This document shows, piece by piece, positions 2,778 to 19,628 of a DNA stretch of 64,000 nucleotides. A program made the translations under genes and the position numbers. Below the pieces are notes generated by a model, which was not told the origin of the DNA, searched no databases, and was given only the letters and a program-made list of their open reading frames with translations. Each line of letters opens with the position of its first letter. Positions within the stretch are counted from its first letter, which is position 1. Source of the DNA: Allobosea sp. ASV33 (GTDB lineage: Bacteria; Pseudomonadota; Alphaproteobacteria; Rhizobiales; Beijerinckiaceae); the NCBI RefSeq assembly GCF_016428755.1, contig NZ_JAELTI010000013.1, forward strand, positions 1-64,000, written 5' to 3'.

Positions 2778-4934
2778 TCAGAAGCCGACATTGAAGCCGG
2801 CCTTGACGATGTCCCCGGCCGTGCGGGCGCGCATGGTCGCGTATTGCGTGGGGGCGAGCCCGGTATAGTCCTGCAAGGTCAGCTTCTGGTTGCCGAGATC
2901 GTAATGCGTGTAGTCGAGCCGGAGCGTCATGCCCGGCAGGATCGCGTATTCGACGCCGCCGCCGAGCGCCCAGCCGCTGGCGATGCCGGAGCGCGAGGCC
3001 GTGGCGCCGGAGGTCGTCGCCGGGTTATCGGGCGTGATCGAGCCCTTCTGGTCGACGAGGCCGTAGGCGTAGCCGCCGCTGCCATAGATCAGAAAATCGC
3101 CGAGCACGAAGCCGGCGCGGGCGCGGACCGTTCCCAGCATCGAAACCTCGTTCTCGGCCTTGGTCGTAAAGCGGGTTCCGCCCGGATTGGCCGCAGTCGT
3201 CTGGTTGCCGCCGAGCCGCGTCGCCGAGATGTCGGTTTCGGCACCGATGACGACCGCACCGATCTGGTAGTTGAAGCCGAACTGCGCGCCGCCGACCGCG
3301 CCGCCGCCGTCAGGCGAGAGACTGCGGGGTACGGCCAGCGGATTGATCGCGCTGGCGGCGAGGATCGGAGACCCCGCAACGGTCGTCGTCGTCGTCGTCA
3401 CGGTGGTGGTCGTCGCGAAGGTCAAACCGCCGGTCGTCGTGGTTGTGGTCGCGGTCGTCGTCGTCGGGGGCGGCGTGAAGGTCGGGCTGCCGAAAGGACC
3501 GGCAACGGTCGTGTTGCCGGTCTGCCGGCCGCCGCCGAGCGAGCCGCCGGCATAGAAGCCGGTCCAGCGCGGACGCTCAGGCAGAAAATTCGGCAGAGCG
3601 GGAGCCAGGGCTTGCGGCGACACGCCCTGGGGCGTCGTGGGCGGAGCCTGGCGCGGCGCGCCGGCATGCGCCGGGGAGACGCCGCGCGGCGTATAGTCGG
3701 CGCGGCGCGTGCGGGGCTGCTGGACGGCCGGGCAGACCGGGCAGGTCTGGGCGACCTGCACGCGGTTGCGGCTGGGCGCCGTCGCCGCCAGCCTCAAGGC
3801 TGCGGCGGTATGATCGGAGACCGGGTAGAGCCGCGCATAGAGCTTGAAGGATTCGGCATCGCCGGCGAGCACGGCCTCGGCCCAGGCGCGCTCGTCGGTG
3901 CGCTGCGCGAGGATGCGGTTCAGGCGCAGCGCGTTCTGGTCTTCCGGGTTGATGGCCAGCACATTGCCGTAGATGTCGCTGCGGTCCCAGGCGATCGCGG
4001 TGCGTGCGGCATCGGCCGCCGACAGCCCGCGCAGCGAGGCCAATGTCGGGCGCGCCGTCAGCGGGACGTTGCCGGCGGTTGCAGGCTGCGCTGCGGGCGC
4101 GCCGGCAGGGCGCTGGAAGAAGCTGAACTCGGTGATCAGCGAGGAGGTGTCCCAAGGAATCTGGGTGCCGTTGGTGGAATCGTAGACGGCAAGGCGGATG
4201 CGGCGGAAAATCTGCTCGACGGCCAGGCCCGGCTCGCGCGCCTCGCGCAGGAAGGCGGTGGTGAAGGGGCTGTTGGCGCCGCTGCCGTCCGCCGCGGTGG
4301 AGCCGGGCGAGGTGGCGAAGGCGACGAAGGTGCCGCTGTTGGAGTCGATGCGGGCGAGGCCGGCTTCGCTGCTGACACCTTCATTGGCGCCGTCGACGAT
4401 CTGGAGCGCGAGGCCGCGGGCGGCCTGGCGTTCCGCAAAGGGGTTGTTGCGGCAGGCGTCGAGGATCGCGATCTTGGACTTGGCGCCGGCGCCGTCGAGG
4501 CGCCGCAGGATATCGCTGAGGGACAGCGACTGCTCCGCGATATTGGAGCCGGCCTGCGGCCGGATATCGGTGGGCAGAATGTAGTTGGCACCGTCGAGCT
4601 GCACGGCATGGCCGGCGTAATAGACGAGCGCCGTCGCGTCGGGGCCGCCCCGGCGCACCTTGTCGACGAAGACGTCGAGCGCGCTGCGCAGGCCGGAGAG
4701 CGAGAGATCGAGCGCAGGCGTGATGTCGAAGCCCGCCTCCTGCAGCATCGCGCGCGTGGCATTGGCGTCGTTCAGTGCGTTCGGCAGCTTGGTGACATTG
4801 GCATAGCCGCCATTACCGACGACGAAGGCGAAGCGCTTCTGCGCGAGGGCCGGCGTCGCGCCGAGGCTCAGCGCCGCGAAGGCCGCCATCCATGCGGCGA
4901 CGATATACGCGTAGGCCCGGGCATGTAACCGCAT
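2778..4934 (-). CDS. Secreted caspase-like (C14) domain fused to an outer-membrane beta-barrel
   Basis: 718 residues. Residues 1-30 form a Sec signal peptide ending ATPALA. Residues ~33-275 are a caspase p20-like fold with the expected dyad: H109 in YYAGHA and C161 in LDACRNN. A linker with a CPVCP pair (398-402) and Pro-rich sequence follows. From about 457 (WTGFYAGGSLGGG) to the C-terminal Phe the protein resembles the Omp25/31-type porin-like barrels of rhizobia, with alternating aromatic strands and a terminal aromatic residue that serves as a BAM signal. A Thr-rich stretch (~491-518) lies in the first long loop or strand connection. Inference: a caspase-like peptidase held in the periplasm or at the surface by its own barrel. 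The substrate is unknown. The gene is single, with a dyad upstream at 4965-5009. Many bacterial caspase-like proteins occur, but this C-terminal barrel partner is unusual. Confidence 0.85.
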   Translation of the reverse strand: MRLHARAYAYIVAAWMAAFAALSLGATPALAQKRFAFVVGNGGYANVTKLPNALNDANATRAMLQEAGFDITPALDLSLSGLRSALDVFVDKVRRGGPDATALVYYAGHAVQLDGANYILPTDIRPQAGSNIAEQSLSLSDILRRLDGAGAKSKIAILDACRNNPFAERQAARGLALQIVDGANEGVSSEAGLARIDSNSGTFVAFATSPGSTAADGSGANSPFTTAFLREAREPGLAVEQIFRRIRLAVYDSTNGTQIPWDTSSLITEFSFFQRPAGAPAAQPATAGNVPLTARPTLASLRGLSAADAARTAIAWDRSDIYGNVLAINPEDQNALRLNRILAQRTDERAWAEAVLAGDAESFKLYARLYPVSDHTAAALRLAATAPSRNRVQVAQTCPVCPAVQQPRTRRADYTPRGVSPAHAGAPRQAPPTTPQGVSPQALAPALPNFLPERPRWTGFYAGGSLGGGRQTGNTTVAGPFGSPTFTPPPTTTTATTTTTTGGLTFATTTTVTTTTTTVAGSPILAASAINPLAVPRSLSPDGGGAVGGAQFGFNYQIGAVVIGAETDISATRLGGNQTTAANPGGTRFTTKAENEVSMLGTVRARAGFVLGDFLIYGSGGYAYGLVDQKGSITPDNPATTSGATASRSGIASGWALGGGVEYAILPGMTLRLDYTHYDLGNQKLTLQDYTGLAPTQYATMRARTAGDIVKAGFNVGF

Positions 4935-5406: not shown

Positions 5407-6960
5407 ATGACGAACGATCCAGCCATCAACCCCTACGATGCGGTGGCCTATCCGGGCCACGCCTTCGCGCAGACCCACCCGTCGCGCCTGGCGACGATCG
5501 CCCATTTCCACGGGATGGACCCCGCGCCGCCGACGACCATGCGTGTGCTCGAATTGGGCTGCGGGCGCGGCGGCAACCTCATCCCGATGGCGGCGCAATA
5601 TCCCGGCAGCCGCTTCCTCGGCATCGACCTGAGCGGGGATTCGATCCGGCAGGCGAACATCAATGCCGCGGAGCTGGGCCTGACCAATCTCGCCTTCGAA
5701 CAGCGAGACATCCTCGCGGTCGGCGAGGAGATCGGCGCCTTCGACTACATCATCGTCCACGGCGTCTATTCCTGGGTGCCGGATGTGGTGCGCGAGCGGA
5801 TCATCGCCCTGTTCGGGGCATTGCTGGCGCCGCAGGGCGTCGCCTATGTCAGCTACAACGCATTGCCCGGCTGCCGGCTGCGCGACCTTGCGCGCGACGT
5901 CATGCTGTTCGCGGTGCGCGATATCGACGATCCGCGCGAGCGCGTCAGGGTGGCGCGGGCCGCCCTGAAGGAGATCGCCGAGGCCAGCGATCCCGACAGT
6001 TTCCACGGCGCCGCCCTGCGGCAAAGGCTGAAGCAGATCGACGAGGTGCCGGACAACGTCCTCTATCACGACGATCTCAACCCCGGCGCGCGCGCCTTCG
6101 CGCTGCACGAGGTGCTGTCGGCCGCCGAACGGAATGGGCTGCAGTTCCTGGCCGAGGCCTCGTTCCCGAATCTTTACGGCGCCGCGAAGGGGCCGGCGCA
6201 GCAGATGCTCGACAAGGTGCCGCTGGAGCAGATGGCCGTGCGCGAGCAGACGCTCGACCTGCTGATCGGACGGGCCTTCCGCGAGACCCTGCTGTGCCGG
6301 GCCGATATTCCGCTGAAGCGCGGCGTGCGGCCGGGCTCGCTCAGGCCTTACCACCTCGCCGCCAATGCGCGGCTGGCGCCGGCCAAGGACGGCGACAAGC
6401 CCGGCGTCCAGCGCTTCAGCTTCGACGAAGGCGTGCAGCTCGCCGTCGACCTGCCGCTCTGCAAGGCCGCGCTCGGGATTCTCAGCGCGGTCTGGCCGGC
6501 GAGCATCGCCTGGGACGACCTCGTGGAACGCTCCTGCCGCGAGGTCGCGGGCGAGCTCGGGCCGGACCGGGCCCATGAGATTACAAGGCTCGACGAAGCC
6601 CTGATCGCGATCTTCAAGGCCGGCCTGCTCGATATCCGGCTGGAGCCGCCGCCGCTAACGACGGCCATCAGCGAGAAGCCGGCTGCCAGCGAGATCGTGC
6701 GCTGGCAGGTCTCGACCACGGCCGAGGTCACCGATCTGCGCCACCGGACCGTCCAGCTCGACGGCGTCGTGGTGCGGAAATTCGTCAGCCTGCTCGACGG
6801 CTCGCGCGACCAGCGCATGCTGCTCGAGGCGATGAACGCCTTCCTCGACGAGACGCGGCGCTCCGGCATCGCCGTGCCCGGCCTGCCGGAGCGGGCGACG
6901 GCAGACGAGGTGGCGATGCATCTGAAGGATGTCGCGCGCCTCGGGCTGCTGCGGGCGTGA
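5407..6960 (+). CDS. Class I SAM-dependent methyltransferase with regulatory domain (PKMT-like)
   Basis: 517 residues. Residues ~40-180 carry the class I fold with motif I VLELGCGRGGN (47-57), the acidic ribose-binding FLGIDLSGDS, and the motif II-III region DYIIVHGVYSWV. The middle (~215-300) looks like the methyltransferase regulatory domain that follows the catalytic core in this family. The rest is a winged-helix-like C-terminus (LLDGSRDQRMLLEAM). This arrangement is known from rickettsial protein-lysine methyltransferases acting on outer-membrane proteins, and from many uncharacterised proteobacterial relatives. Substrate here is unknown. It is followed after 66 bp by the zinc-ribbon/transglycosylase gene in the same direction, probably one transcription unit, and is divergent from the caspase-porin gene. 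Confidence 0.85.
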   Translation: MTNDPAINPYDAVAYPGHAFAQTHPSRLATIAHFHGMDPAPPTTMRVLELGCGRGGNLIPMAAQYPGSRFLGIDLSGDSIRQANINAAELGLTNLAFEQRDILAVGEEIGAFDYIIVHGVYSWVPDVVRERIIALFGALLAPQGVAYVSYNALPGCRLRDLARDVMLFAVRDIDDPRERVRVARAALKEIAEASDPDSFHGAALRQRLKQIDEVPDNVLYHDDLNPGARAFALHEVLSAAERNGLQFLAEASFPNLYGAAKGPAQQMLDKVPLEQMAVREQTLDLLIGRAFRETLLCRADIPLKRGVRPGSLRPYHLAANARLAPAKDGDKPGVQRFSFDEGVQLAVDLPLCKAALGILSAVWPASIAWDDLVERSCREVAGELGPDRAHEITRLDEALIAIFKAGLLDIRLEPPPLTTAISEKPAASEIVRWQVSTTAEVTDLRHRTVQLDGVVVRKFVSLLDGSRDQRMLLEAMNAFLDETRRSGIAVPGLPERATADEVAMHLKDVARLGLLRA

Positions 6961-7026: not shown

Positions 7027-8817
7027 ATGAGCGAGCGCTTCCGGCAATTCCAGGCGCTGTTTCCGGAGGAGGATTGCCTCGCCGCGCTGATGCGCCTGCG
7101 ACATGGCGGCACGAGCCTGACATGCTCCGCCTGTGGCCGGCCGGCACGGTTCGAGCCGCGCCCGAAGCTGCGCGGCTTCGCCTGCCAGCATTGCCACTAC
7201 ATGATTCATCCGGCGGCGGGGACGCCGCTGGAAAGCCGGCGTACGCCGCTGCAACTCTGGTTCTACGCGCTGAAGGTGGCATCCGAGAAGCCGGGAAAGG
7301 CTGCCGTCGGCGTGATCGCACGCGATACGAGCGTGCCGCAGATCACGGCGCAGCGGCTCGTCGACGACCTGACCACACTGGCCGGGCGCAGCGATGCCGG
7401 CTGGCTGGAGGCGCTGCGCAGCCTCGTGACGGGAAAGCCGGAGGCGGTGCCTGCGATGGCAGCTCCGCCGCCTCGGCCTCCAACGCCCGCTCCCAATCCG
7501 CCCGCTGCCGCGCCCATGCGACGGGAGGTGCCGGAAGCGCCACGAGCGATTCCGGCGCACCCGGCAGCCGCCATGCCGGTTCCGCCTCCCGCTTCACGGC
7601 CAGCGCCTGCGCCTCCGGCGACCGCGCCGCCTGGTCCGGCCAAGGCTGCGGATCTTGCCGCATCGAGCGATGTGCGACCAAAGAAGGCTTCATCTGGGCG
7701 CAAGGCGATCGCTGCGGTGGCGGCGGGCGTGGCCTGCGTCGTGGCGGCCGTGCTCGGCCTGGCCTATGCCCGGCTCCAGCAGCAGGAGAGGCCGGAACCC
7801 GAGCGCGGGATCGATATCGCGGCCGTCGAGGCTCCCGCCCTGAAGGATGCGCCGGCGCGACCCTCGCTGATCCTGTCCTCGGTCGAGCAGGATCTGGAGG
7901 GTGCGCGACAGGCGGCCCAGTTCGCGCTCGACAACGATCCGTCGCTGGCGGCGATCAAGCCGCAGGAGGAGGCGCCTACCCAGCAGGTGCCGGTGAACCA
8001 ATTGCAATTGCCGTCGAACATCCTGCTCGTGCCGCCGAAGATGCAGGGCGGCCCGCCGCCGGGGCCGGTCTCGGCCACCGGTGCGCCGCAGCCGCCGCCC
8101 CAGATCTCCAGCGGCGATCCCGACCAGGTGCTGACGTTCGGGCCGATCAAGATCCGCCGGCATCTCGTCGACACCATCGTGCGGGCCAGCAAGGTCGTCG
8201 GCGCGGACCCGACCCTGCTGATGGCGGTGGCCGACAAGGAATCCTCGTTCTCGACGGCGGTGAAGGCGCAGACCTCCTCGGCGACCGGGCTCTACCAGTT
8301 CATCGAGCAGACCTGGCTCGGCGTGATCTATGAGTTCGGAGCCAAGCACGGGCTTGCTGCCGATGCGAAGCTGATCGGCAAGTCCGGCCGTCAATTCGTC
8401 GTGACCGATGGCTCGCAGCGCCAGCGCATCCTCGACATGCGGCGCGAGCCGTATATCTCGGCGCTGCTGGCGGCCGAGATGCTGAAGCGCGACACGCTCA
8501 GGCTGGAGCGGGCGCTCGGGCGCCATCTCACCGGCGGCGAGATCTACCTGATCCATTTCCTCGGCCCCGATGCGGCGCAGACCTTCATCGAGACGATGGA
8601 GGAGCAGCCCGGCGTCAAGGCGGCCGAGCTGTTGCCCAAGCCCGCCCAGGCCAACCGCCCGATCTTCTATGCCGATGCCGGCGGCGAGACGAAGACGCTC
8701 TCGGTCTCCGAGGTCCACAAGAAGTTCAACGACATGATCAAGATCCGGCTCGACCGCTACAGCGCGGTCAGGCCGGGCGGGGGCGGGGGGATCGCCCGGC
8801 CGCAACCGAAGAAATGA
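7027..8817 (+). CDS. IS1595-type zinc-ribbon/HTH domain fused to membrane helix and SLT lytic transglycosylase
   Basis: 596 residues in one uninterrupted frame. Residues 1-~120 match the N-terminal zinc ribbon of IS1595-family transposases: CSAC (C33, C36) and CQHC (C53, C56), then the PLQLWFYAL segment and a helix-turn-helix. A Pro/Ala linker (~140-215) leads to one membrane helix (~227-249). A Gln/Pro-rich stretch precedes a lytic transglycosylase domain: E405 in ADKESSF is the catalytic acid candidate, followed by SATGLYQFIEQTW. Predicted topology puts the zinc ribbon in the cytoplasm and the transglycosylase in the periplasm. The transposase DDE core is absent. Role is inferred: cell-wall cleavage with a cytoplasmic nucleic-acid- or protein-binding sensor, perhaps serving the T6SS that begins 550 bp downstream. 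Confidence 0.85.
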   Translation: MSERFRQFQALFPEEDCLAALMRLRHGGTSLTCSACGRPARFEPRPKLRGFACQHCHYMIHPAAGTPLESRRTPLQLWFYALKVASEKPGKAAVGVIARDTSVPQITAQRLVDDLTTLAGRSDAGWLEALRSLVTGKPEAVPAMAAPPPRPPTPAPNPPAAAPMRREVPEAPRAIPAHPAAAMPVPPPASRPAPAPPATAPPGPAKAADLAASSDVRPKKASSGRKAIAAVAAGVACVVAAVLGLAYARLQQQERPEPERGIDIAAVEAPALKDAPARPSLILSSVEQDLEGARQAAQFALDNDPSLAAIKPQEEAPTQQVPVNQLQLPSNILLVPPKMQGGPPPGPVSATGAPQPPPQISSGDPDQVLTFGPIKIRRHLVDTIVRASKVVGADPTLLMAVADKESSFSTAVKAQTSSATGLYQFIEQTWLGVIYEFGAKHGLAADAKLIGKSGRQFVVTDGSQRQRILDMRREPYISALLAAEMLKRDTLRLERALGRHLTGGEIYLIHFLGPDAAQTFIETMEEQPGVKAAELLPKPAQANRPIFYADAGGETKTLSVSEVHKKFNDMIKIRLDRYSAVRPGGGGGIARPQPKK

Positions 8818-8874: not shown

Positions 8875-9153
8875 ATGCCGGCCAACCGTTTCGAACAGGT
8901 CGACGAACCGCCGACCGATGCGATCACGCTCAAGCTGTCGCAGCGCGGCGGAGAGGCGTTCGGGCACGTGCTCTGCCCGGCCGACCTCGCCGGCGGGCAT
9001 CTGGTCAATGATTTCGTCAGCGATGAACTGGCGGCCAAGGACGCCTTCCGCACGGCGATCCGCCTAGCCAACGAGATCCAGGCGCCGATCGTGGTCGAGG
9101 ACAAGGCTGGCGTCTGGCAGGAGGAATGGGGCGTGCTGTACCGCGAGGATTGA
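8875..9153 (+). CDS. Small conserved-looking hypothetical protein (92 aa)
   Basis: Starts after a good ribosome-binding site (AAAGGAG) and follows the transglycosylase gene by 57 bp in the same direction, so it is probably co-transcribed. It is acidic, with no signal peptide, membrane helix or cysteine motif apart from a single Cys. It has an ordered alpha/beta look (DAITLKLSQRGGEAF, IVVEDKAGVWQEE). I do not recognise the family. A cytoplasmic partner of the neighbouring protein is possible but unsupported. Confidence 0.7.
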   Translation: MPANRFEQVDEPPTDAITLKLSQRGGEAFGHVLCPADLAGGHLVNDFVSDELAAKDAFRTAIRLANEIQAPIVVEDKAGVWQEEWGVLYRED

Positions 9154-9368: not shown

Positions 9369-11483
9369 TCACTCGATCCGGAAATACTTGATGCCCAGGC
9401 CGAGCTTGCCGCTCTGGCGGGCGAGGTCGAGCTTGAGATTGGCGAAGAACTCGCTCGCGGGTGACGGATTTGGCCCTGACAGTGCCGGCAGCGCCTCCTT
9501 CGTGACCAGTGCGAGCACGGTCTGCGGGCGCGCCGCGCCGCCGGTCGATTCGAGCTTGAGATTGAAGGTGACCTTGTTGCCCTCGCGCTTGGTGAAGCTC
9601 GCGAGATTGTAGACGAGCCCGTCGTCGCCGATCAGCACGACGTCGAGATTCTGGCCGCCGCCGGCCTCGACCGAGCCGTTGAGGATCTCACCGCTCTTCA
9701 TGTTGAAGGCGCCGATCTGGATTCGCGGGCTGCGGTCGATGCCGACGCCGGGCCGGCGCAGGAAATCGACCATCGGACACTGTGCCTCGGTCATCGGCCG
9801 CAGATGGATCTGCGCCTCGAAGCCCTGCGCGGCCTTGAAGGCACCGTCGAAGGCGACGAAGGGGGCCGACGCGCTGCCGAAGCCTTCCAGCGTGGCCTTG
9901 CGGTCGCCGATCTCCAGTGGCCAGAGGAAGAAGCAGGAGCCGCCGTCATAGTCGCGGACATAGCGCTCGATCCGCTCGGCCGACGTGCGCGGCTCGGGCT
10001 CGGGCACCATGGCGGCGACCTGCGGCGGCGCGACGCTCTGGCCGGGCGGAGGCGTCGGAATGACGACAGCGACGGGCGGCGGCTCCGGCGGCTTCACCTC
10101 GACGGCCGGAGGAGGCTTGATCGGCTCGGCTGCGGGCGGACGCGTCGGACCCTGTTGCTGGGGCGGCTCGGCATTTACCGCGACTTGCGACGAGCCGGAT
10201 GGGGGCCGTTGCGGTGGTCGTGAAGGCTGCTGCACGCCTTGGGATGGCGTGGCCGGAGGCGGCGAGGGCGGGTTCTGCGAAGCGGCAGGCCTCTCGGCGG
10301 CCGGAGGCGCAGCCGGCGCCGCGGGCAGGGATGGCTGTGCCGGCACTTGTGGCGGCGCAGCTGGCGCGCTCGTCGCCGGCGATTGCGTTGCAGGGGCCTC
10401 GGTCAGCGCGGGCGGCGCGCTGGTCGCGGGCTGTTCCGCAAGCGACGGCGGATCATTGGTCGCGATGCGCCCTGGTTCTTTGCCGCCGAGCGTCGTCCAG
10501 GCGTAGAAGCCGCCGCCGGCCAGCAAGGCAAGGACGGCGATGCCGGCGACCAGCGGCAGGGGCGAGCGCCCCGATTTTTCCGAAGGTGCCTTTCCGACTT
10601 GCGCCTTGGCGGCCGCCTTCTTGCCGCGAGCCGGCGCCTGCCAGTTGGCGACCTCGGCCATGTCAGCGGGGCGGTCCTTCGGATCGGGCGCGAGCATGCG
10701 CGCCAGCAGGGGGCGGATTCTGGCATCGACGCCGGAGAGATCGGGCAGGCGGCGGCGCTTGTCGATGATGTCGACCTGGGAGCCGCCCATGTCGATGGCG
10801 CGCCCGGTCAGGGCCTGCGCCAGCACCAGCGCGAAGGAATACATGTCCGAGCGGCCGGAAACCTCGCCGCCATAGAGGCCGAGCTGCTCGGGCGAGACAT
10901 AGTTGTATTTCCCGGCGAAGCCGGAGCCGATCACCGTGCCCTCGCCGAGGATGCTGGAGCGGGCGATGCCGAAATCGATGATCTTGGCGCGGGAGGGATC
11001 GGCGTCCGGCAGGATGATGTTGTCGGGCGAGATGTCGCGATGGATGATGCCGAGCCGGTGCGCGGCATGCAGGCCGGGTCCCACGCGTTGTCGCAGGATA
11101 TCGGCCTCCTCGACGCTGAGCGGCCCCTGCTGGATACGCTCCGAGAGCGGTTGTCCGTCGACGAATTCCATCGCGAGATAGGGCGTTTCGCTCACCGGAT
11201 CGATGGCGAAGACGTAGTAGCGGACGATGGCCTCGTTATAGAGGTTATGCAGGGCCGCCGCCTCGCGCCGGAACAGGGCGAGAACGGACTCGTCGCGGGC
11301 CATGTCGGGGCGGATCATCTTGATCGCCACGGCGTCGCCGGTCTGGATGGCGCGGCCCTTGTAGACCTCGCCCATGCCGCCGACCGCGATCAGGCTCTCG
11401 ATTTCGTAGATGCCGTTGAGCTTCGTGCCGATGCGGGCATTCGCACGCGGGGCGAAGACGGTGCGCTCGGAGTCGTCGCTCAT
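9369..11483 (-). CDS. ppkA: T6SS-associated membrane Ser/Thr protein kinase PpkA
   Basis: 704 residues from the ATG at 11483, chosen because it forms an ATGA overlap with the pppA stop. The kinase domain (~25-300) has the Gly-rich loop GGMGEV (35-40), K55, HRD (148-150) and DFG (170-172), with YVSPEQ at the activation segment end. The usual HRDxK lysine position is Ser (HRDISPDN), as in a bacterial subset. A membrane helix follows at ~315-335, then a long Pro/Ala-rich linker and a C-terminal periplasmic domain (RIERYVRDYDGGSCFF onward) seen in T6SS kinases. Known role: phosphorylates the FHA protein (TagH) to trigger assembly, opposed by PppA. It is last in the tssK-to-ppkA operon. Confidence 0.93.
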   Translation of the reverse strand: MSDDSERTVFAPRANARIGTKLNGIYEIESLIAVGGMGEVYKGRAIQTGDAVAIKMIRPDMARDESVLALFRREAAALHNLYNEAIVRYYVFAIDPVSETPYLAMEFVDGQPLSERIQQGPLSVEEADILRQRVGPGLHAAHRLGIIHRDISPDNIILPDADPSRAKIIDFGIARSSILGEGTVIGSGFAGKYNYVSPEQLGLYGGEVSGRSDMYSFALVLAQALTGRAIDMGGSQVDIIDKRRRLPDLSGVDARIRPLLARMLAPDPKDRPADMAEVANWQAPARGKKAAAKAQVGKAPSEKSGRSPLPLVAGIAVLALLAGGGFYAWTTLGGKEPGRIATNDPPSLAEQPATSAPPALTEAPATQSPATSAPAAPPQVPAQPSLPAAPAAPPAAERPAASQNPPSPPPATPSQGVQQPSRPPQRPPSGSSQVAVNAEPPQQQGPTRPPAAEPIKPPPAVEVKPPEPPPVAVVIPTPPPGQSVAPPQVAAMVPEPEPRTSAERIERYVRDYDGGSCFFLWPLEIGDRKATLEGFGSASAPFVAFDGAFKAAQGFEAQIHLRPMTEAQCPMVDFLRRPGVGIDRSPRIQIGAFNMKSGEILNGSVEAGGGQNLDVVLIGDDGLVYNLASFTKREGNKVTFNLKLESTGGAARPQTVLALVTKEALPALSGPNPSPASEFFANLKLDLARQSGKLGLGIKYFRIE

Positions 11484-12289
11484 GACGTGGGGCTCCCTGG
11501 CGTGGTGACACCGCGCATGGACCGGTTCGGCATCCACCGTGTCCTTTCGCTCGTGCCCTGTCGATAGCGCACGATGACGACGGTGACGTTGTCGCGCGCG
11601 CCGCGCTCCAGCGTCAGCGCCAGCAGGGCGTCGCAGGCTTCCTGCGCGCCGCCGGCCTCGACGGCGGCGAGGATCTCGGCGTCAGCGACATGCTCTGTCA
11701 GCCCGTCCGAGCAGAGCAGGAAGGTGTCGCCATCGGCGATCTCGCCGTTCTCGAGGTCGAGCTCGGGCGTCTCGTGCACGCCGATCGCATGGGTGATGAT
11801 GTGCCGGCGCGGCGAGCGCTTCGCCTCCTCGGGCGTCAGCAGGCCGCGATCGACCATGTCCTGGACCTCGGTATGGTCGCGCGAGACCTGCGCGATCCGG
11901 CCGCCGCGGATCAGGTAGATGCGGCTGTCGCCGGACCAGAGGCAGGCGAAATGGCGCTGGTGGATCAGCAGGCAGACGAGCGTCGCGCCCATGGTCGCGC
12001 CGCGCCGGTCGATCTCCGAGCGCAGGTCTTCGTTGGCCTTGAGCACGCCGGCTTCCAGCATGGCGAGGAGGTCCGGGGCAGAGCCTGCGGCCCCGACCGC
12101 CTCCAGCGCCGCGACCACAGTTGCGCTGGCGAGCGCGCCGTTCTCGTGCCCGCCCATGCCGTCGGCGACGGCCCAGAGGCCGATTTCCGGCCGCAGGATG
12201 AAATTGTCCTCGTTGGCCGTGCGGACCTTGCCGGTATGGCTGATGCAGCCGGTCTCGAAATCCGGGTTCCGGCGCGGGGCGTCGTTCAT
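11480..12289 (-). CDS. pppA: PP2C-family protein phosphatase PppA (T6SS)
   Basis: 269 residues, soluble. PP2C motifs are in order: GKVRTANEDNF, VADGMGGHENG (metal-binding Asp), SGDSRIYLIRGG, VSRDHT, LLCSDGLTEHV and RDNVTVVIV. It should remove phosphate from PpkA and TagH, resetting T6SS assembly. It is separate from TagF here; in some rhizobia the two are fused. Stop and ppkA start share ATGA (11483-11480), implying coupled translation. Ten bp separate it from tagF. Confidence 0.95.
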   Translation of the reverse strand: MNDAPRRNPDFETGCISHTGKVRTANEDNFILRPEIGLWAVADGMGGHENGALASATVVAALEAVGAAGSAPDLLAMLEAGVLKANEDLRSEIDRRGATMGATLVCLLIHQRHFACLWSGDSRIYLIRGGRIAQVSRDHTEVQDMVDRGLLTPEEAKRSPRRHIITHAIGVHETPELDLENGEIADGDTFLLCSDGLTEHVADAEILAAVEAGGAQEACDALLALTLERGARDNVTVVIVRYRQGTSERTRWMPNRSMRGVTTPGSPTS

Positions 12290-12299
12290 GGCATCGCCC

Positions 12300-13007
12300 T
12301 CATGGCCCGGCGCGCTCGGGCGCGAGATGGCCGTCGAAGCGGCCGGTGAGCAGGCCGGCGAAGAGATAGGGATCGGGCAAGGCGTGGCCGGTCAGGGCCA
12401 GCGGCTCGAAATTCGGGCCGCCGACCGTCCAGAGATAGCATGAATGGGCATAGGCGCGGGCATGGTCCTCGACGCGCAGGGCCGCGAGACGCTCCGGGAA
12501 GCCGGAGGCGATCGCGGCGCTGACGATGGTGCCGTCGGCGAGCCGGACCATATCCTGCGGCGGCGCTGCAAGGTGATGGTCGTGCGGGACGGGGAGTGTG
12601 GCCAGCCGCTGCGCCACGGCCTCGTAGCTCGCCTGGGGCTCCAGCGCCTGCAGCAGGAAATCCTCGATGGCCTCGAACCATGTGTCCTGAGGGTCGAGCT
12701 CCGGCGGCGGGATCGCGACGCCTGGACCGGCGGCGGCGAAGACCGTCAGCGGGAAATAGCGGCCGACGCCGTCGACCGAGGGCATGAAGGCGCCCGCGAC
12801 CGTCTGCCCGCCATGGGCGCCGCCCAGCCAGAAGCGCCAGATCGGGGCGTTGAGATAGGCCTCCTGCCAGCGATTGCCGAGTTCGAGCCGGCTCGCGGTA
12901 AGGCCGCCCTGCTGCCATTTCTCGTAAGGCCCGAGGAAGCCGGAGGGGGCGTTCAGCGCGATGAAGTCACGCTTGGCCGGAAGCTTGCCGAAAAGGCCGC
13001 AGCTCAA
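12300..13007 (-). CDS. tagF: T6SS accessory protein TagF
   Basis: 235 residues. The N-terminus CGLFGKLPAKRDF and the following WQEAYLNAPIWRFWLG and GRYFPLTVFA blocks are characteristic of TagF, a post-translational repressor that binds Fha in other species. The only workable start is TTG at 13007: upstream in the same frame stands the tssM stop TGA (13013-13011), with just GCC between. No Shine-Dalgarno is visible, so translation probably depends on reinitiation after tssM. Confidence 0.9.
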   Translation of the reverse strand: MSCGLFGKLPAKRDFIALNAPSGFLGPYEKWQQGGLTASRLELGNRWQEAYLNAPIWRFWLGGAHGGQTVAGAFMPSVDGVGRYFPLTVFAAAGPGVAIPPPELDPQDTWFEAIEDFLLQALEPQASYEAVAQRLATLPVPHDHHLAAPPQDMVRLADGTIVSAAIASGFPERLAALRVEDHARAYAHSCYLWTVGGPNFEPLALTGHALPDPYLFAGLLTGRFDGHLAPERAGP

Positions 13008-13010
13008 GGC

Positions 13011-16000
13011 TCAAATCCCGGATGGGCAGCGGATTTCCCGCAGCGCCGGCAGGATCAGGGGGTTCTTGAGCGAGCCGACGCCGAAGGAATAGCCGACCTG
13101 CCGGCCGCCGGCACTCAGGTTGAAGCCGACATTGTCGCCCTGTTTCAGCACTGAGCCGGCATCGAGCAGACGGAAGAAGGACCAGGTGCCGTCCTTCTCG
13201 AAGAGCTTGGCCTCGCCCTGCGCAGCGCTGCCGCTCTGTGAGCCCGAGGAGAAGAAGCCGCCGCTGAACATGCCGCCGGAATTGCTGCTGCCGCCGCCGA
13301 GCGTCAGCGTCACCGCCGTCTTGCCGACGCCGCCGCCCGGCCACATTACCGGGGCCGGCGTATTGACGCCCTGCTGGCTCGTCACGGTGAAGCCGTTGAT
13401 CTCCAGCTTGGCGTTGGACGCATCGGCCGAGAGTGCGGTCGGCGTCACCACCATCTGGAAGGAGGGCAGGTTGCCGCCGGTCGGGAAGAAGGCCTCTTTG
13501 ATCTCGCTGGCGCGCTGGAATTCGCGCAAGGTCGTCGGCGAGAGAGCGCGCGCGACGCGGCTGTCGACGCGCCAGCTCCATTGCGGCTTCGAGGTATCGA
13601 CGAAGGGCTCCAAACGCTCCTTGTAGAACTTGTCCATGATCTGGCCGGGCGCGAAGAGCCTGGCGAAATCGGCGAGCGGCACGTCGCGGGCGCTCGCCTT
13701 GGTGAAGGGGTAGCGGTTGGTGACGATCTCGTTGCAGACGCCGGTGACCTGTTCCGCCAAGGCCTGTCGCAGCAGGGCGACGGTGGCGCCAGTGGCATCG
13801 CCCTCAAAATCGTTGACCGCTTGCACGATCATGCCGTCGAAGGGCGCGGGGTAGCGCGAGGAATTGGCTCGCAAGGTCGCGATCAGAGGCACGAGCGCTG
13901 CATTCGCGGCCGCCGACTGGGACGGATTGGTCGCGGCGATGGCGAGGTTCTGGCTGATCTCCGAGAAGGTCTGGAGGAGCTGGTCGACCGGCCGGCGGCC
14001 GAGATCGCCGTCGACGAGGACGTGGTAGGGCTTGAACTGCGCCTCGATATCGGCGCCGAGCGAGACGTCGTTGCTGCCGGCGAGCACGCGGTCGACGCCG
14101 GCCGAGGCCATCGGCAGGTTGGCGCCGAGACGGCCGAGCGCCTGGCTGGCGCGCTCGTCCAGCGTCTGCGCCGCGTTCTTCGCGGCGGTCTGCGCGACGG
14201 CCTTCTTCGCGTTGGGGCGCTCCTTGGTGAGCTGCGTCTCGTCGCGCAGGGATTCCAGCACCTGCTTGAAGGGCGATGTCGCGGCCGAGATGGCGCTGAG
14301 CGCGACATAGCGCGGTTTATCGGCATTGAGCGGCCGGAGCTTCAGCCGCCGCAGCGTCTTCTGCCAGGTCGCGACATAGTCGCGGCTGTAGAGTTTCATC
14401 AGGTCCTGGAACAACGTCGCGTATTGCGCGGTGATCGCCTGCTGGTCGACGTTTTCGCCCAGCACCCAGCGTTCTTTCTCGATGCGGTCGCCGATATCGC
14501 CGAGCCGGCCGATGAAGGCGCTCTGGAAGCCGTCATAGGTGTAGAAATACGGCACGCGGACCTGATCGAGATCCTCGCCGCCGGTGCCTTCGAAGACCAG
14601 GCGGACATCGGAGCCGCCGCGCTGCGAGACGACCCAGTCCTTGGCGCTGTCGCTGCGGGACTGGGTGCGTAGCAATTCATAGGCGCGCTCGGCGATGCTG
14701 AGGCGGCGGAGCGTACGCTGGCTCTGCTCGATCAGCGACTGGTTGAGCTTCACCATCGGCTCGCCCGTGCCCTCGTCGAGGTCGAGCATGGCGGTCAGGT
14801 GCTCCTCCAGCGCCTCGCGGCCCTTGGCGTTGGCCGGGCCTGGGAAGAGGTTCTCGGCCCAGTCCAGTCGCATCCAGGAGGTGACAAGATCGCGGTCGAG
14901 CTTCGCCTGGCCGCCGATCATCATGTAGACCTTGAGCGCCTCGTAGACGAAGCCGGGATTGTTGGCCTGCTGCTCGAGCTGCTCCTCCAGGCGGAAGATG
15001 ATGCGGGGCCGCAGCATCCGCTCCAGACCCTGCTGGTAAGTGATCTCGCTCGCGTTCTGGAGGCGCTCGCGCTGGCTGAGCCCGAAGGTGGCCAGCGTCG
15101 GCGTTGGCTCGGCTTGCGTGGCGTAGCCCGCCGGCATGTTCCGGAGCTTGTGCAGTAGGGGCAGCACGCGGCTAAAATTGCGGTCGGAGATCGTGGTCTC
15201 CTGCAGCACGGGCGCGGCCGCGCTGCGATAGTCGGAAAGCCCGTAATTGGTCGCGGTGATCAGGTCGCTGTTGCGCGAAAAACTCGTCCACCACAGGCCG
15301 AGCGCGGCGAGCGACAGCAGCGTGACCGTCGCGAAGCCGGCGATGCGCAGCGCGGTGGTGCGGCGGGCGGCACCGAGATCGGTCGAGACCCAGCCGGATT
15401 CACCGATCACGACCTTCTGGATCAGCTCTGTCAGGAAATAGCTCTTGCCCTTGCCGGAGAAGGAGGCCGCGCCGGCATGGTCCGAGCCGAAATTGCGCGA
15501 GAGCGCGCCGATCAACTGGTCGATCGGGGTGCCTTCCTGCGTGCCCGAGGTGAAGTAGAAGCCGCGGAGCGTCGCGTTGGCGTGGTAGCGCGTCGGCTCG
15601 AAGACGCGGGTGAGGAAATCGACGATGGAACGCTTCAGCGTCGCCATCTGGCTGGGGAAGCCGAAGATCTGGGCGCGCGCGGTCGGGTTGTGCTCGTCCT
15701 GCAAACGATCGGGCAGGCGCTCGTTCAGGCGCTCGATCAGCGCGTCATATTCCGGCGGCACGTCGCCGATCATGTTGCGGGTCTTGTCGGCGGTCTGGAA
15801 GGTGTGGCCCCAGACCATGCGCCGCTGCGGCTCGGTCAACTGGCCGAAGAACTCGTTGAAGCCGGCGATCAGGTCCGCCTTGGTAAAGACGGCATAGACC
15901 GGGAAATCGACCTTCAGGCGCTCGTGCAGCTCAAGCAGGCGGGCGCGGATCGCGTCGGCATGGGCGGCGATCTCCTCCGGCGAGGAGGTCAGCAGGTCCT

Positions 16001-16643
16001 CGACGCTGATCGCGACGAGCACGCCGTTGATCGGCTGGCGCGGACGGTTGGTCTTGAGCAGGTCGAGGAAGGCAAACCAGCTCGATTTCTCGGCCTTGGT
16101 GTCGGTGTCCTGCGTGGTGTAGCGGCCGGCGGTATCGATCAGCACCGCATCCTCGGCGAACCACCAGTCGCAATAGCGCGTGCCGCCGGAGCCGGCGACG
16201 GCAGCTGGCGTCGCGCCGCGTGCCAGTGGGAATTTCAGGCCGGAATTGACCAGAGCGGTAGTCTTGCCGGCTCCCGGTGGGCCGATGATCACGTACCAGG
16301 GCAGATCGTAGAGATAGTCGCCGCCCTTGCCCCGCGCGCTCTTCAGGGTCGCCAGCGCATCCTTCATCGCGCTGGAGAGCGCTGCGCCGTCGCCGGTGGT
16401 CTCTTCCTTCTCCAACGCCTCGGTGAGGGCTGCCGTCGCCTTGCGGCGGCGGATGACGATGAGGGCGATCCAGGCGAATGCACCGAGCAGGAGCACGGCC
16501 GCAAGGGCTAAGCGGACCCAGAAAGACTCGAACGGTCGCACCTCGCCGAAAGCGACGAAGGGGCCGCCGAACCAGATCAGCGCGGCGAGCGCAAGCGCGC
16601 CGATCAGGATCGCGAGGATGCGCAGCCAGGTGGCGAGATTCAT
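13011..16643 (-). CDS. tssM: T6SS inner-membrane core protein TssM (IcmF)
   Basis: 1210 residues from the ATG at 16643, which has AGGAGGG at ideal distance; an upstream in-frame start (16679) lacks this. Two N-terminal membrane helices (~8-26, 43-64), a cytoplasmic GTPase-like domain with Walker A GPPGAGKTT (121-129) and DTAGRY, a third helix near 430, then a large periplasmic region ending in the IcmF C-terminal domain. It forms the trans-envelope channel with TssL. The usual partner TssJ was not found. The Walker A motif is intact, unlike some TssM. A repeat element separates it from tssL. Confidence 0.96.
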   Translation of the reverse strand: MNLATWLRILAILIGALALAALIWFGGPFVAFGEVRPFESFWVRLALAAVLLLGAFAWIALIVIRRRKATAALTEALEKEETTGDGAALSSAMKDALATLKSARGKGGDYLYDLPWYVIIGPPGAGKTTALVNSGLKFPLARGATPAAVAGSGGTRYCDWWFAEDAVLIDTAGRYTTQDTDTKAEKSSWFAFLDLLKTNRPRQPINGVLVAISVEDLLTSSPEEIAAHADAIRARLLELHERLKVDFPVYAVFTKADLIAGFNEFFGQLTEPQRRMVWGHTFQTADKTRNMIGDVPPEYDALIERLNERLPDRLQDEHNPTARAQIFGFPSQMATLKRSIVDFLTRVFEPTRYHANATLRGFYFTSGTQEGTPIDQLIGALSRNFGSDHAGAASFSGKGKSYFLTELIQKVVIGESGWVSTDLGAARRTTALRIAGFATVTLLSLAALGLWWTSFSRNSDLITATNYGLSDYRSAAAPVLQETTISDRNFSRVLPLLHKLRNMPAGYATQAEPTPTLATFGLSQRERLQNASEITYQQGLERMLRPRIIFRLEEQLEQQANNPGFVYEALKVYMMIGGQAKLDRDLVTSWMRLDWAENLFPGPANAKGREALEEHLTAMLDLDEGTGEPMVKLNQSLIEQSQRTLRRLSIAERAYELLRTQSRSDSAKDWVVSQRGGSDVRLVFEGTGGEDLDQVRVPYFYTYDGFQSAFIGRLGDIGDRIEKERWVLGENVDQQAITAQYATLFQDLMKLYSRDYVATWQKTLRRLKLRPLNADKPRYVALSAISAATSPFKQVLESLRDETQLTKERPNAKKAVAQTAAKNAAQTLDERASQALGRLGANLPMASAGVDRVLAGSNDVSLGADIEAQFKPYHVLVDGDLGRRPVDQLLQTFSEISQNLAIAATNPSQSAAANAALVPLIATLRANSSRYPAPFDGMIVQAVNDFEGDATGATVALLRQALAEQVTGVCNEIVTNRYPFTKASARDVPLADFARLFAPGQIMDKFYKERLEPFVDTSKPQWSWRVDSRVARALSPTTLREFQRASEIKEAFFPTGGNLPSFQMVVTPTALSADASNAKLEINGFTVTSQQGVNTPAPVMWPGGGVGKTAVTLTLGGGSSNSGGMFSGGFFSSGSQSGSAAQGEAKLFEKDGTWSFFRLLDAGSVLKQGDNVGFNLSAGGRQVGYSFGVGSLKNPLILPALREIRCPSGI

Positions 16644-16687
16644 AGCTTCGCCCTCCTGTTTTTCACTGCCTCGACGCAACTCGCGCC

Positions 16688-16807: not shown

Positions 16808-18259
16808 TCAGCCCTGACGCTGGATCAGGATTTCGACGCGCCTGTTCTGAGCGCGCCCATCTGCGGTGTTGTTCGGCGCGATCGGCGTATCCGCGCCCTT
16901 GCCCTCGAAGCTGATCCGGTCCGGCTTGCTGAGCTTGGCCTTCAGGCCGTCGCCGACCGCCTTGGCGCGCGCCTGCGACAGCTCGACATTGGAGGGGAAG
17001 CGGGCGGTGCGGATCGGGACGTTGTCGGTATGGCCGACGACCTTGATCGCGCCGCCCTCCTGCTCCAGCACGGCGGCGATGCGCTCGATCAATGGCTGGA
17101 ACTCGGCGCGCACGGCGGCCTGGCCGGGCTCGAACAGGGTGATGCCGACGAGGCGGACGATGACGACATTGGGCGTCACCAGGCAGACGATCGGCGGCTG
17201 CACGGCCGCGCAGACCTTGGGCGGCTGCGGCGGAGGCGGGGGAGGCGGCGGCGGGGCCGAGAAGACCTTGCGCATGATGCCGATCTCGCCCTTGGGGTGG
17301 ACCGAGAGCAGGGCGGTCGAGGCCGCCTCGGCATTGCCGGCAAGCAGCGCGCGGAAGACGAAATAGACGCCGAGCAGAGCAATGGCCGCGATCGCCGCCA
17401 CCGACCAGACCGGGACCTTGAAGCCGGCGAGTGCCTGCGCGATCGCCTGTCCGCGCCAGCGTGGCGACAATTCGGGGTCGGGCTGTTTCACCCGGCGCAG
17501 CGTTTCGAACAGGTTGCGCTGGATCATCTGGAGATTGTTGGCGCCGCCCGCCGACGTCCGGTGGATGCCCTGGAAGCCGAGCGCGAGGCAGGCATGCATC
17601 AGTTCGAGCAGGTCATAATTGACCGACGGATCGGCCTTGGCCTTGTCGAGCATCTCAAAGAAGCGCACGCCGCCGATGCGCTCGCCGAAGAAGCGCGAGA
17701 GCATGCTGTACTGCGTCCAGACATGGCGGTCGTCGCCGGGGATATTCTGGACGATGTCGTCGGCGCTGGCCGCGATGACGTATTTCGCCGTCTGCGCGGT
17801 TTCGTGCGAGACGCCGGCAGCGCGGACCTCATGCTCGAAGGCCTCGATGGACTCGCCGACCTGGCCGAGAAGCTGGGCGAAGGGCGCGTTGGAGAGGTTG
17901 GCGCGCATCCGCCCGAGCAGGAGCAGGAGCGGACCCGCGGCGCGCAGCAGCGGGTTGGCGTTCGGCGTCAGGAGCTGGTCGCGGCGCGGCAGGGCCTGGC
18001 CGCCGCCGCCCGAAGGCGGCGGGGCCTGCTGCTGGCGTTGCGGGATCGGCGCCGGGTTCGACATCCACTCGTCGCCAGTGCCGGGCACGCCGGGCGAGGG
18101 CACTTGCGGTGGCTGATAAGGCTGTGGGGCCTGCGGCGCGGCCGGTGCCGGGGTAGCGGGAGCGGGCGGCAGGGGCGCGCGGCGCCCGCCAGGGTTCGGC
18201 CTGATGATCGTGCGCTCGGAGCGCCCGAACGGATCTGAGGGCGAACCCGGATCGCTCAT
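16808..18259 (-). CDS. tssL: T6SS protein TssL (DotU) with C-terminal OmpA peptidoglycan-binding domain
   Basis: 483 residues. A Pro-rich cytoplasmic N-terminus, the DotU domain (~90-265), one membrane helix (VWSVAAIAAIALLGVYFVF), a poly-Pro linker, then an OmpA/MotB domain (~355-483) with VVGHTDNVP and NRRVEILI. This 'evolved' TssL anchors the machine to peptidoglycan directly. Its ATG overlaps the tssK stop (ATGA at 18259-18256). With no tssJ or other TagL here, the OmpA extension is probably the main wall anchor. Confidence 0.96.
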   Translation of the reverse strand: MSDPGSPSDPFGRSERTIIRPNPGGRRAPLPPAPATPAPAAPQAPQPYQPPQVPSPGVPGTGDEWMSNPAPIPQRQQQAPPPSGGGGQALPRRDQLLTPNANPLLRAAGPLLLLLGRMRANLSNAPFAQLLGQVGESIEAFEHEVRAAGVSHETAQTAKYVIAASADDIVQNIPGDDRHVWTQYSMLSRFFGERIGGVRFFEMLDKAKADPSVNYDLLELMHACLALGFQGIHRTSAGGANNLQMIQRNLFETLRRVKQPDPELSPRWRGQAIAQALAGFKVPVWSVAAIAAIALLGVYFVFRALLAGNAEAASTALLSVHPKGEIGIMRKVFSAPPPPPPPPPQPPKVCAAVQPPIVCLVTPNVVIVRLVGITLFEPGQAAVRAEFQPLIERIAAVLEQEGGAIKVVGHTDNVPIRTARFPSNVELSQARAKAVGDGLKAKLSKPDRISFEGKGADTPIAPNNTADGRAQNRRVEILIQRQG

Positions 18260-19593
18260 CGCCTGCCCTCCAGAACGGCCCAGAGCTCGAGTTCGAGATC
18301 AGGCCAGTCACCGGAAAAATGCATGCCGATCGAACTCGCCGTGCTGAACTCGGGCCAGAGCGGCGAGGTGCGGTCGAGATAGAAATAGACATGATCCGTC
18401 AGCGCGCGGATCTGCGGCGGCGGCGTCGGCAGATGGACGAGATTGATGCCCGGCAGATGGGTATGGACGATCTCGTTCATCTTGGTGTTGGGGCCGACCT
18501 TGAAGAGCTGCGGGAACTGCGCCTGGATCTCGGTCAGCGGGCGGCGTGCGGCGACTTCCAGCACCAGTGTCGCGTTGCGCACGAGGCTGCGGTCGCGGAT
18601 CGTCGACATGAAGGCGTTCTGCGCCCGCTCGACGATCTCCAGCCGGATCGCCCGGCGGCCGAGATTGGCCGAGAGGAAGTCCTGGATGTCGCGGACGACC
18701 GGGGCGAAGCAGTTCTCCAGGTCGTCGTGATCATAGGCCGGGTAGTCGCGGGTGCGGCGCTCGGCGGTGGTGAAGGTGGCAAGTTCGCCGGCGAGCGCCA
18801 GGAAGGCCGAGAACAGCCGCTCGGGATGGACGAAGCGCGAGCGGCGCATGTGCTTGAGCACGGGGATGCTGCGGTTGAGAAGCTGGAGCACGAAATAGTC
18901 GGCGCTCTGCAGGCCGCCGCCGGCCGTTGGATCGGCGGCGTAGCGGGCGAGCTCTTCCAGCTTGTTGTCGATCCAGCCGATGACGCGGTCGAGCCAGCCC
19001 TCGATCACCGGATAGGCCGAGCAGACCAGCACCGGCGGGGCGAATTTCTCGTCGAACAGGATGGCGCGATCGCGCACTTCGAGGATGCGGCCCAGCGCCA
19101 AGCCGACATAGCCGGCCTTGGAGGTCTTGCGCAGCTCCAGTGTCAGGCGCGGATGGGCGACGTCGATCTCTTCTTCCGTGCGCAGCGAGGCGGTGGAATC
19201 GATCAGCATCTCGTTGGCGGGGACATAGCGGCTGGCTGAGCCGTTCAGCGTGTCCTCGACCTCGCGCGTATTGGCGGCGGCGAGCGGCAGCGAAAGCCAG
19301 ACGATCTGCCCGGCGGCGTTCTCCGGGACCTCGATCGCGGCCGGGAGCGGGCTGTTGTCGGGCAGCGCGAAGGGCGTGCCGTCCGGCATCACGCCGACGG
19401 CGCGGCGCAGGCCGATGCGGCTCTGTTGGGCGAGGTCGCGGTCGATCTCCAGCACCGAGAAGCCCCATGGATAGGGCGTGACGTTCCTGACGCGGCTTTC
19501 CAGCAGGTTTTCGAGATAGCGATCGCTCTGCTGGAAGTGATGCGGCCTGAGAAACAGTCCTTCCGACCAGACGACCTTGCTGTACCACGACAT
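18256..19593 (-). CDS. tssK: T6SS baseplate-membrane connector TssK
   Basis: 445 residues from the ATG at 19593 (MSWYSKVVWSEGLFLRPHHF is the family's conserved N-terminus). A GTG at 19608 would add five residues and cannot be excluded. Conserved TssK features run throughout; no signal peptide or membrane helix. TssK trimers link the TssEFG baseplate to TssL/TssM. It is first in the leftward operon, with a candidate promoter 30-60 bp upstream. Confidence 0.96.
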   Translation of the reverse strand: MSWYSKVVWSEGLFLRPHHFQQSDRYLENLLESRVRNVTPYPWGFSVLEIDRDLAQQSRIGLRRAVGVMPDGTPFALPDNSPLPAAIEVPENAAGQIVWLSLPLAAANTREVEDTLNGSASRYVPANEMLIDSTASLRTEEEIDVAHPRLTLELRKTSKAGYVGLALGRILEVRDRAILFDEKFAPPVLVCSAYPVIEGWLDRVIGWIDNKLEELARYAADPTAGGGLQSADYFVLQLLNRSIPVLKHMRRSRFVHPERLFSAFLALAGELATFTTAERRTRDYPAYDHDDLENCFAPVVRDIQDFLSANLGRRAIRLEIVERAQNAFMSTIRDRSLVRNATLVLEVAARRPLTEIQAQFPQLFKVGPNTKMNEIVHTHLPGINLVHLPTPPPQIRALTDHVYFYLDRTSPLWPEFSTASSIGMHFSGDWPDLELELWAVLEGRR

Positions 19594-19628
19594 TCCGGTC
19601 TCGCTCACTCGAAGGCAGGCGGGCTGAG

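Follow-up and report, generated by a model that had tools for sequence, protein, structure and literature searches.

A predicted membrane-bound transglycosylase with a transposase-derived front end tracks one type VI secretion lineage in Bosea and other genera

Why should a predicted peptidoglycan-cutting enzyme be joined, through the membrane, to a domain of the kind found in transposases, and why should its gene lie beside a type VI secretion system (T6SS)? The question is raised by a gene in a 64-kb stretch of DNA from Allobosea sp. ASV33 (GCF_016428755.1, contig NZ_JAELTI010000013.1, positions 1-64,000, forward strand; hereafter the window). The gene encodes a fusion of a zinc ribbon, a membrane helix and an SLT transglycosylase domain, and we refer to both protein and gene as ZS. 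An initial annotation of the window had proposed two options, a T6SS-dedicated transglycosylase or a wall-sensing one-component regulator. We find that ZS tracks one T6SS lineage, and we consider it fairly likely that the protein is a peptidoglycan opener dedicated to that T6SS, in which a domain captured from an IS1595 transposase now serves for docking or control. Below, G codes designate genomes and L codes loci or sequences from those genomes; feature coordinates are collected in Table 1.

Architecture and predicted topology of ZS

ZS reads as a single frame, rather than being split in two genes, in 46 of 46 Bosea loci as well as in the two Microvirga species and four additional genomes that carry it, which rules out an assembly or frameshift artefact. 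The 46 Bosea proteins, drawn from a survey of 67 genomes of the genus, were aligned as orthologues. The start of the gene is well supported by the pattern M-x-(E/Q)-(R/H)-F, which is common to all of them and was also the criterion on which they were extracted. From its N-terminus, the protein comprises a zinc ribbon flanked by helices (knuckles CSAC at 33-36 and CQHC at 53-56), a Pro/Ala linker, a membrane helix, a moderately conserved stretch and the transglycosylase domain. The reading frame, the cysteines C33, C36, C53 and C56, the SLT domain and its E405 are as initially annotated, and these five residues are invariant both across the 46 orthologues and across a second alignment of 34 rows, two Microvirga proteins among them. 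Among the orthologues, 129 of the 195 SLT-region positions are invariant. Residues 1-60 have 16 invariant positions out of 60 and residues 61-135 have 10 out of 75, while the linker (136-222) has none among its 87.

The single membrane helix, annotated at about 227-249, corresponds to a hydrophobic segment at 224-251 whose best window begins at 227. One such segment per protein was found in 48 of 48 ZS rows (46 from Bosea and 2 from Microvirga), and the zinc-ribbon side of the helix is the more positive in 44 of them, with 3 ties and 1 against. Because the helix is single and, under the positive-inside rule, this side is the inner one, the prediction places the zinc ribbon in the cytoplasm and the enzyme domain in the periplasm.

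Given its invariant catalytic motif, the periplasmic half resembles an enzyme more than a sensor that has lost activity. The SLT domain PF01464 scores 24.0 bits in ZS, over the curated cut-off of 21.3 bits, and is matched at an E-value of 0.01 or better in 34 of 34 members of set A2. A phmmer search of the PDB matched residues 388-562 to a lytic transglycosylase (E 3.8e-21) entered as 3bkh, lytic transglycosylase/Endolysin gp144, which we take to be the protein of phage phiKZ. The PHROGs matches of ZS are phage transglycosylase and tail families. A tblastn search of 50,697 phage records returned 200 of them, and the 15 matches listed are all Pseudomonas phages of 278-309 kb, covering residues 375-593 only. 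The VanY-like peptidase domain pfam13539 is absent from the Pfam matches of ZS up to an E-value of 1.

Descent of the N-domain from IS1595-family transposases

The N-terminal domain (N-domain), in which the initial annotation had seen an HTH-like (helix-turn-helix) region, is modelled with confidence by AlphaFold2: for residues 1-146, the mean predicted local-distance difference test score (pLDDT) is 91.5 and the predicted template-modelling score (pTM) 0.85, with helices at 75-87, 91-101, 105-119 and 125-135. The transposon origin that the annotation had assigned to this domain is supported by alignments, a tree and plasmid matches. The profile PF12760 (Zn_ribbon_IS1595) falls short of its curated cut-off of 25.4 bits in the window's own ZS, passes it in orthologues from G056 (30.1 bits), G058 (29.9) and G101 (25.7), and matches 18 of the 34 members of set A2 at an E-value of 0.01 or better. 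By hhalign, residues 1-131 aligned with IS1595-type proteins of the genus (probability 97.8; E 9e-13, calculated for one comparison), and BLASTP against a small database matched the window's N-domain to a DDE transposase (36.7% over 120 residues). Profile searches of the family and of the order brought out closer relatives, five of which were scanned (295-312 aa): all five carry PF12760 together with the DDE domain PF12762. A Pfam scan of ZS did not find PF12762 (DDE_Tnp_IS1595). On these matches, ZS is best regarded as a descendant of IS1595-family transposases that is not itself a member of the family.

A tree was built from 52 N-domains, with 20 of the 50 ZS rows, and these 20 form one clade (support 92/87). 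This clade groups with six transposase-type rows, one of which (L171) has a frame of 163 aa, not long enough for a DDE domain, and the whole group is split from the other IS1595-type rows at 100/99. Searched alone against plasmid records, the N-domain matched 11, all annotated as IS1595 family transposases. A draw of 81 genomes across the order gave 12 matches in 10 genomes besides the window's own; since their open frames are only 163-325 aa long, none can hold the fusion. The related transposons showed no terminal inverted repeats at 16 of 20 positions or better in the 6 loci searched. In Bosea itself, six short proteins (L144, L147 and L151-L154; 223-234 aa) carry an IS1595-type zinc ribbon and HTH, are apparently too short for a DDE domain, and possibly arose when this module was domesticated a second time, independently.

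A profile of the N-domain (A3) gave no match below E 0.12 among solved structures, and Foldseek gave none at E 0.001 or better between the N-domain model and the PDB; VIA-align of the model with 403 chains reached a Z of at most 5.5. No IS1595 transposase is among the 50 Foldseek and 50 VIA-align matches listed, an absence that says little. In BFVD, two viral proteins matched the model at E 5e-4 and 6e-4. Matches of residues 26-62 to Cas12f TNB and C1 zinc-finger domains were weak, below the Pfam cut-offs, and were rejected as reflecting the common CxxC pattern.

Positions conserved in at least five of six related transposase-type proteins were compared with the majority residue of 50 ZS rows. 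In the first helices and in the zinc ribbon alike, ZS retains 8 of 11 such positions, and in the next segment 5 of 7. By contrast, the HTH retains only 6 of 19, and the residues lost include basic and aromatic ones. The HTH core carries a mean net charge of -0.9 in ZS (48 rows), compared to +3.0 in 12 longer IS1595-type proteins (L145, which clusters with the short ones in the tree, being counted among them) and +4.7 in 7 short ones. Note that the difference is seen in the matched core; when longer HTH windows were taken, ZS and the IS1595-type proteins could not be told apart by net charge. The HTH fold is thus predicted to be kept, with its transposase-specific positions changed. The loss of most of these positions and of the positive charge makes DNA binding by the N-domain less likely. 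Since the zinc ribbon was kept while the HTH signature and charge were mostly lost, docking or regulation seems a likelier role than control of transcription.

These data weigh on the regulator option, according to which the cytoplasmic HTH would bind a promoter, for example that of the T6SS or of the methyltransferase operon, while the periplasmic SLT domain would sense or trim wall fragments. Membrane-anchored one-component regulators of the ToxR/CadC type do consist of a cytoplasmic HTH, one membrane helix and a periplasmic domain. ZS has the same layout, but its HTH is of IS1595 descent and its periplasmic part is a conserved enzyme domain. The HTH-like helices predicted with high confidence, the descent from a transposase's DNA-binding region, the weak structural resemblance to DNA-binding domains of the homeodomain, MarR and DnaA types (all within the Z limit given above) and the basic character of the zinc-ribbon half (mean net charge +5.9 over residues 1-84, within the +2 to +7 of IS1595-type proteins there) would all suit a regulator. 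The degraded HTH signature and its charge do not, and an invariant catalytic motif would be needless in a pure sensor. We therefore find the regulator option unsupported and judge it unlikely, the transglycosylase option being favoured; neither a periplasmic ribbon nor the lack of an HTH-like fold is predicted. A bolder idea is that the domesticated domain still binds specific chromosomal sites, ZS tethering DNA such as the T6SS locus to the site of wall opening or reporting the opening to T6SS transcription. We hold this to be quite improbable; if true, a single protein would connect a site on the DNA with the membrane and with the cutting of peptidoglycan.

ZS tracks one T6SS lineage

As the initial annotation had noted, a T6SS island begins about 550 bp from ZS; the gap to the kinase reading frame is 551 bp. 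This proximity recurs. ZS is present in one open frame in 46 of the 67 Bosea genomes and TssM above cut-off in 50; both occur in 45 genomes, TssM alone in 5, ZS alone in 1 and neither in 16. TssM lies 3.9-6.3 kb from ZS in 40 of the 46 genomes and on a separate contig in 4, and a T6SS kinase gene stands beside ZS in 44 of the 46 Bosea excerpts. Likewise, a scan of genome contigs covering 80 of 508 relatives found the zinc-ribbon fusion at 33 loci, 32 of them with a T6SS kinase gene, while at the 47 loci lacking the ribbon the Bosea queries detected none of the T6SS genes probed.

Beyond the genus, the fusion recurs as one gene in two Microvirga species and in G101, G114, G220 and G232 (four other genus codes, among which Microvirga may be). 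G101 apart, these genomes have T6SS genes no more than about 7 kb from ZS, a few other genes separating the two in the Microvirga loci. In a draw of 99 genomes from 43 genera of the family, 39 of the genomes being additions to an initial draw, ZS occurs in 7 genomes, all TssM-positive, and TssM in 28. To detect fusions that the full-length profile might overlook because of a diverged N-domain, the SLT frames of further matches in the added genomes were read; 19 stretches together with L224 and L225 showed neither a CxxC-CxxC pair nor an N-domain match, four known fusions serving as positive controls; one further SLT match came from G033, a Bosea genome covered by the genus survey. Ignoring kinship, the co-occurrence of ZS and TssM has a P value of 8e-5.

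Because this P value leaves shared ancestry aside, more weight is given to the TssM tree, built from 32 of 56 rows after omission of near-duplicates and of the divergent L192, L193 and L195. The TssM proteins of ZS-associated systems form one clade of 14 rows with support 100/100, and all 14 come from genomes with ZS. The clade takes in L048, one of two systems of G050, and L182, the sole system of G101, neither of which is adjacent to ZS. Outside it fall G209, which has the top TssM score and no ZS, and the second T6SSs of ZS genomes used in the tree (L196 and L198). An earlier, quick tree of 49 rows from 57 loci (5 without TssM in the stretch and 3 stray translations left out) gave the same grouping, with 25 rows and a Shimodaira-Hasegawa-like approximate likelihood-ratio test (SH-aLRT) value of 99.

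A rival reading is that ZS is a general cell-wall transglycosylase that happens to lie beside a T6SS, with no dedicated role. Unfused relatives do exist: L223-L226 share 57-59% identity with the SLT domain of ZS, lack the zinc ribbon and have no T6SS genes found nearby. The enzyme half may have come from housekeeping transglycosylases of this type. In the family draw, such unfused relatives also occur in TssM-negative genomes, whereas the fusions are confined to TssM-positive genomes of one TssM lineage. Moreover, 65 of the 67 Bosea genomes (all but G034 and G046) already own a separate unfused SLT relative. The existence of unfused enzymes, and the three genomes discussed below, in which ZS is away from the T6SS cluster or no TssM was found, speak for a general enzyme; on balance we regard it as quite unlikely.

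Proposed role, neighbouring genes and known systems

By analogy with TagX and MltE, we propose that ZS opens glycan strands for the T6SS membrane complex. A gp144-like transglycosylase domain, kept on the periplasmic side by the single membrane helix, would cut the strands at the site where the complex inserts. The N-domain in the cytoplasm most likely stems from a single capture, in which an IS1595-family DDE transposase supplied the zinc ribbon and HTH without the DDE domain. It would most likely act there as a docking or control module, folded and stabilised by zinc, that gives the enzyme its position or timing. Its partners might be TssM/TssL or the kinase/phosphatase/TagF/Fha switch encoded nearby, and docking would restrict cutting to sites of T6SS assembly. 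Gene and domain structure, descent of the N-domain from a transposase, the topology prediction, the invariance of catalytic and zinc-ligand residues and the link to a single T6SS lineage are computed results, whereas enzymatic activity, zinc binding and a part in T6SS assembly are what we infer. The descent of the cytoplasmic front end from a transposon's DNA-binding enzyme suggests that part of a mobile element was reused to place or control a wall cutter.

An M23 peptidase domain is encoded in the T6SS stretch at 8 of the 23 ZS-less loci probed (18 + 5): L049-L053, which are all five ZS-less Bosea T6SSs, and L183, L189 and L191 from other genera. A hydrophobic helix precedes the M23 domain in all seven genes read at full length (L189 was seen as tblastn pieces only), L049 having a weak second hydrophobic peak inside the domain. 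No M23 gene was found in the ZS loci probed, in the 64-kb window or in six second T6SSs of ZS genomes (L196-L201), most of the T6SS stretches probed being 5-21 kb long, so that absence there is not proof. In ZS-less Bosea T6SSs, the M23 gene is a possible replacement of ZS, and the pattern fits a lineage-specific wall opener. In G102, the gene L183:1977-4430 (minus strand), between Fha-like and TssK genes of a different T6SS lineage, encodes an 818-aa protein with one hydrophobic helix, an M23 domain (Pfam) and an SLT-like part (own profile, E 8e-17).

Several observations weigh against the role that we propose. ZS and TssM are 262 kb apart in G050, ZS is unlinked from the T6SS in G101, and no TssM was found in G031, where the contig ends no more than about 140 bp from a kinase match. 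Neither ZS nor an M23 gene was seen, in the stretches examined, at 15 of the 23 ZS-less loci and in 6 of 6 second T6SSs, so that a cluster-encoded cutter is not universal. As to the protein, PF12760 scores 18.4 bits in the window's ZS, under its cut-off, and L160 forms a long branch within the group of ZS and transposases, a single capture being supported only at the 92/87 of the ZS clade. For the full-length protein, AlphaFold2 gave a poor model (mean pLDDT 63.4, pTM 0.38, with residues 403-419 near the active site below 50), and the catalytic fold consequently rests on sequence matches. Finally, the docking role of the N-domain is one that we infer.

Table 1. Coordinates of ZS, its parts and its neighbours in the window, and of M23 genes at ZS-less Bosea loci (locus code given)
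Feature	Coordinates	Strand	Basis
ZS fusion gene, 596 aa	7027..8817	+	open reading frame, Pfam, genus orthologues
Zinc-ribbon knuckles C33xxC36 ... C53xxC56	7123..7194	+	sequence; invariant in 46 Bosea orthologues and 34 aligned rows
HTH-like helices, residues 75-135	7249..7431	+	AlphaFold2; alignment to IS1595 transposase HTH
Pro/Ala-rich variable linker, residues 136-223	7432..7695	+	no invariant position among 136-222
Single membrane helix, residues 227-249, N-terminus predicted cytoplasmic	7705..7773	+	one hydrophobic peak, 48/48
Predicted periplasmic SLT/phiKZ gp144-like transglycosylase domain, residues 371-565	8137..8721	+	homology; 129/195 positions invariant
Catalytic glutamate codon E405 (by homology)	8239..8241	+	aligned with ESxF motif of gp144
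Methyltransferase (PKMT-like) with regulatory domain, 66 bp upstream of ZS	5407..6960	+	Pfam; neighbour in 45/46 Bosea loci
92-aa conserved protein after ZS	8875..9153	+	neighbour in 45/46 Bosea loci
Ser/Thr kinase of T6SS cluster (presumably PpkA-like), convergent with ZS	9369..11537	-	kinase domain match
PP2C phosphatase (PppA-like)	11480..12289	-	family match
TagF	12300..13007	-	family match
TssM	13011..16679	-	TIGR03348, 1117.8 bits
TssL (DotU plus OmpA-like domain)	16808..18259	-	annotated in window
TssK (VasE/ImpJ family)	18256..19608	-	annotated in window
Membrane-anchored M23 gene	L049: 2909-4354	-	near T6SS genes, Bosea
Membrane-anchored M23 gene	L050: 2309-3772	-	near T6SS genes, Bosea
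Membrane-anchored M23 gene	L051: 14929-16383	+	near T6SS genes, Bosea
Membrane-anchored M23 gene	L052: 14489-15961	+	near T6SS genes, Bosea
Membrane-anchored M23 gene	L053: 16141-17601	-	near T6SS genes, Bosea

The T6SS genes of the window extend beyond TssK to a PAAR protein (plus strand), an Fha-like protein and a VgrG-like protein; we take the kinase to be PpkA-like from its position. On the other side of ZS, the methyltransferase gene is missing next to ZS in one Bosea locus only, at a contig end. It also accompanies ZS in Microvirga massiliensis (L083), but a search next to ZS did not detect it in Microvirga pakistanensis (L085), G101, G114, G220 or G232. Further away in the window, at 2778-4934 on the minus strand, a Caspase-like (Peptidase_C14) domain is fused to an outer-membrane beta-barrel domain. 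The 92-aa protein that follows ZS has no Pfam or NCBIfam match; it is also encoded at the T6SS of G101 (L182), although ZS is elsewhere in that genome, and is a candidate T6SS accessory gene.

This small neighbour matters to a further reading, in which ZS would be a T6SS effector, that is, a transglycosylase toxin delivered into rivals. The gene does lie in a T6SS neighbourhood, and lytic transglycosylase activity is known among T6SS effectors, as for Tse4 in the excerpt of PMC10433429. However, an internal membrane helix and a folded N-domain are predicted in ZS, and each of the 14 rows in its TssM clade comes from a genome that has ZS, as for a core gene. The 92-aa protein is unlike an immunity partner, because it has no evident membrane or export segment (judged by eye) and stays at the G101 T6SS without ZS. 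We consider an effector role very improbable.

How does a T6SS-dedicated opener compare with known systems? The enzyme half of ZS shares with gp144 the catalytic domain with its ESxF motif, over ZS residues 388-562; the match is confined to the C-terminal part, the two having no membrane helix or zinc-ribbon domain in common. The N-domain is collinear over about 120 residues with the zinc ribbon and HTH of IS1595-family (ISXO2-like) transposases, such as L170, L172 and the plasmid-borne ISAcr1; unlike these, ZS has no DDE domain and has lost most of the HTH signature.

Among T6SS-linked hydrolases, TagX of Acinetobacter is an inner-membrane-anchored L,D-endopeptidase required for T6SS function, according to the excerpt of PMC5061870. 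It shares with ZS the nature of a peptidoglycan hydrolase, a phage-endolysin-like domain, a gene in the T6SS cluster and an inner-membrane anchor, predicted in the case of ZS. It differs by its pfam13539 peptidase domain, ZS being predicted to cleave glycan through its SLT domain, and the excerpt mentions no transposase-derived zinc-ribbon domain like that of ZS. MltE, which opens the wall for the T6SS membrane complex of enteroaggregative Escherichia coli (EAEC; Santin and Cascales, via the excerpt of PMC10433429), is a lytic transglycosylase as ZS is by homology. By the same excerpt, it is a housekeeping enzyme recruited to the membrane complex and stimulated by the TssM C-terminus, whereas ZS is T6SS-linked and has a membrane helix and a cytoplasmic domain of its own.

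Safe opening of its own wall by a T6SS has been described for few systems, TagX and MltE being those in the excerpts cited. To these ZS adds a lineage-specific candidate wall opener whose cytoplasmic part may offer a handle for control, and the apparent swap between ZS and M23 genes makes it testable, within Bosea, whether each T6SS lineage has its own wall cutter. No description of the fusion architecture was found in the open-access literature, a scope that leaves out subscription papers and preprints. A T6SS-linked peptidoglycan hydrolase is of a known kind, while the architecture of ZS and the reuse of a transposase zinc ribbon and HTH in a membrane enzyme appear new: this appears to be a domestication in which the DNA-binding part of a transposase, and not its catalytic part, was put to use.

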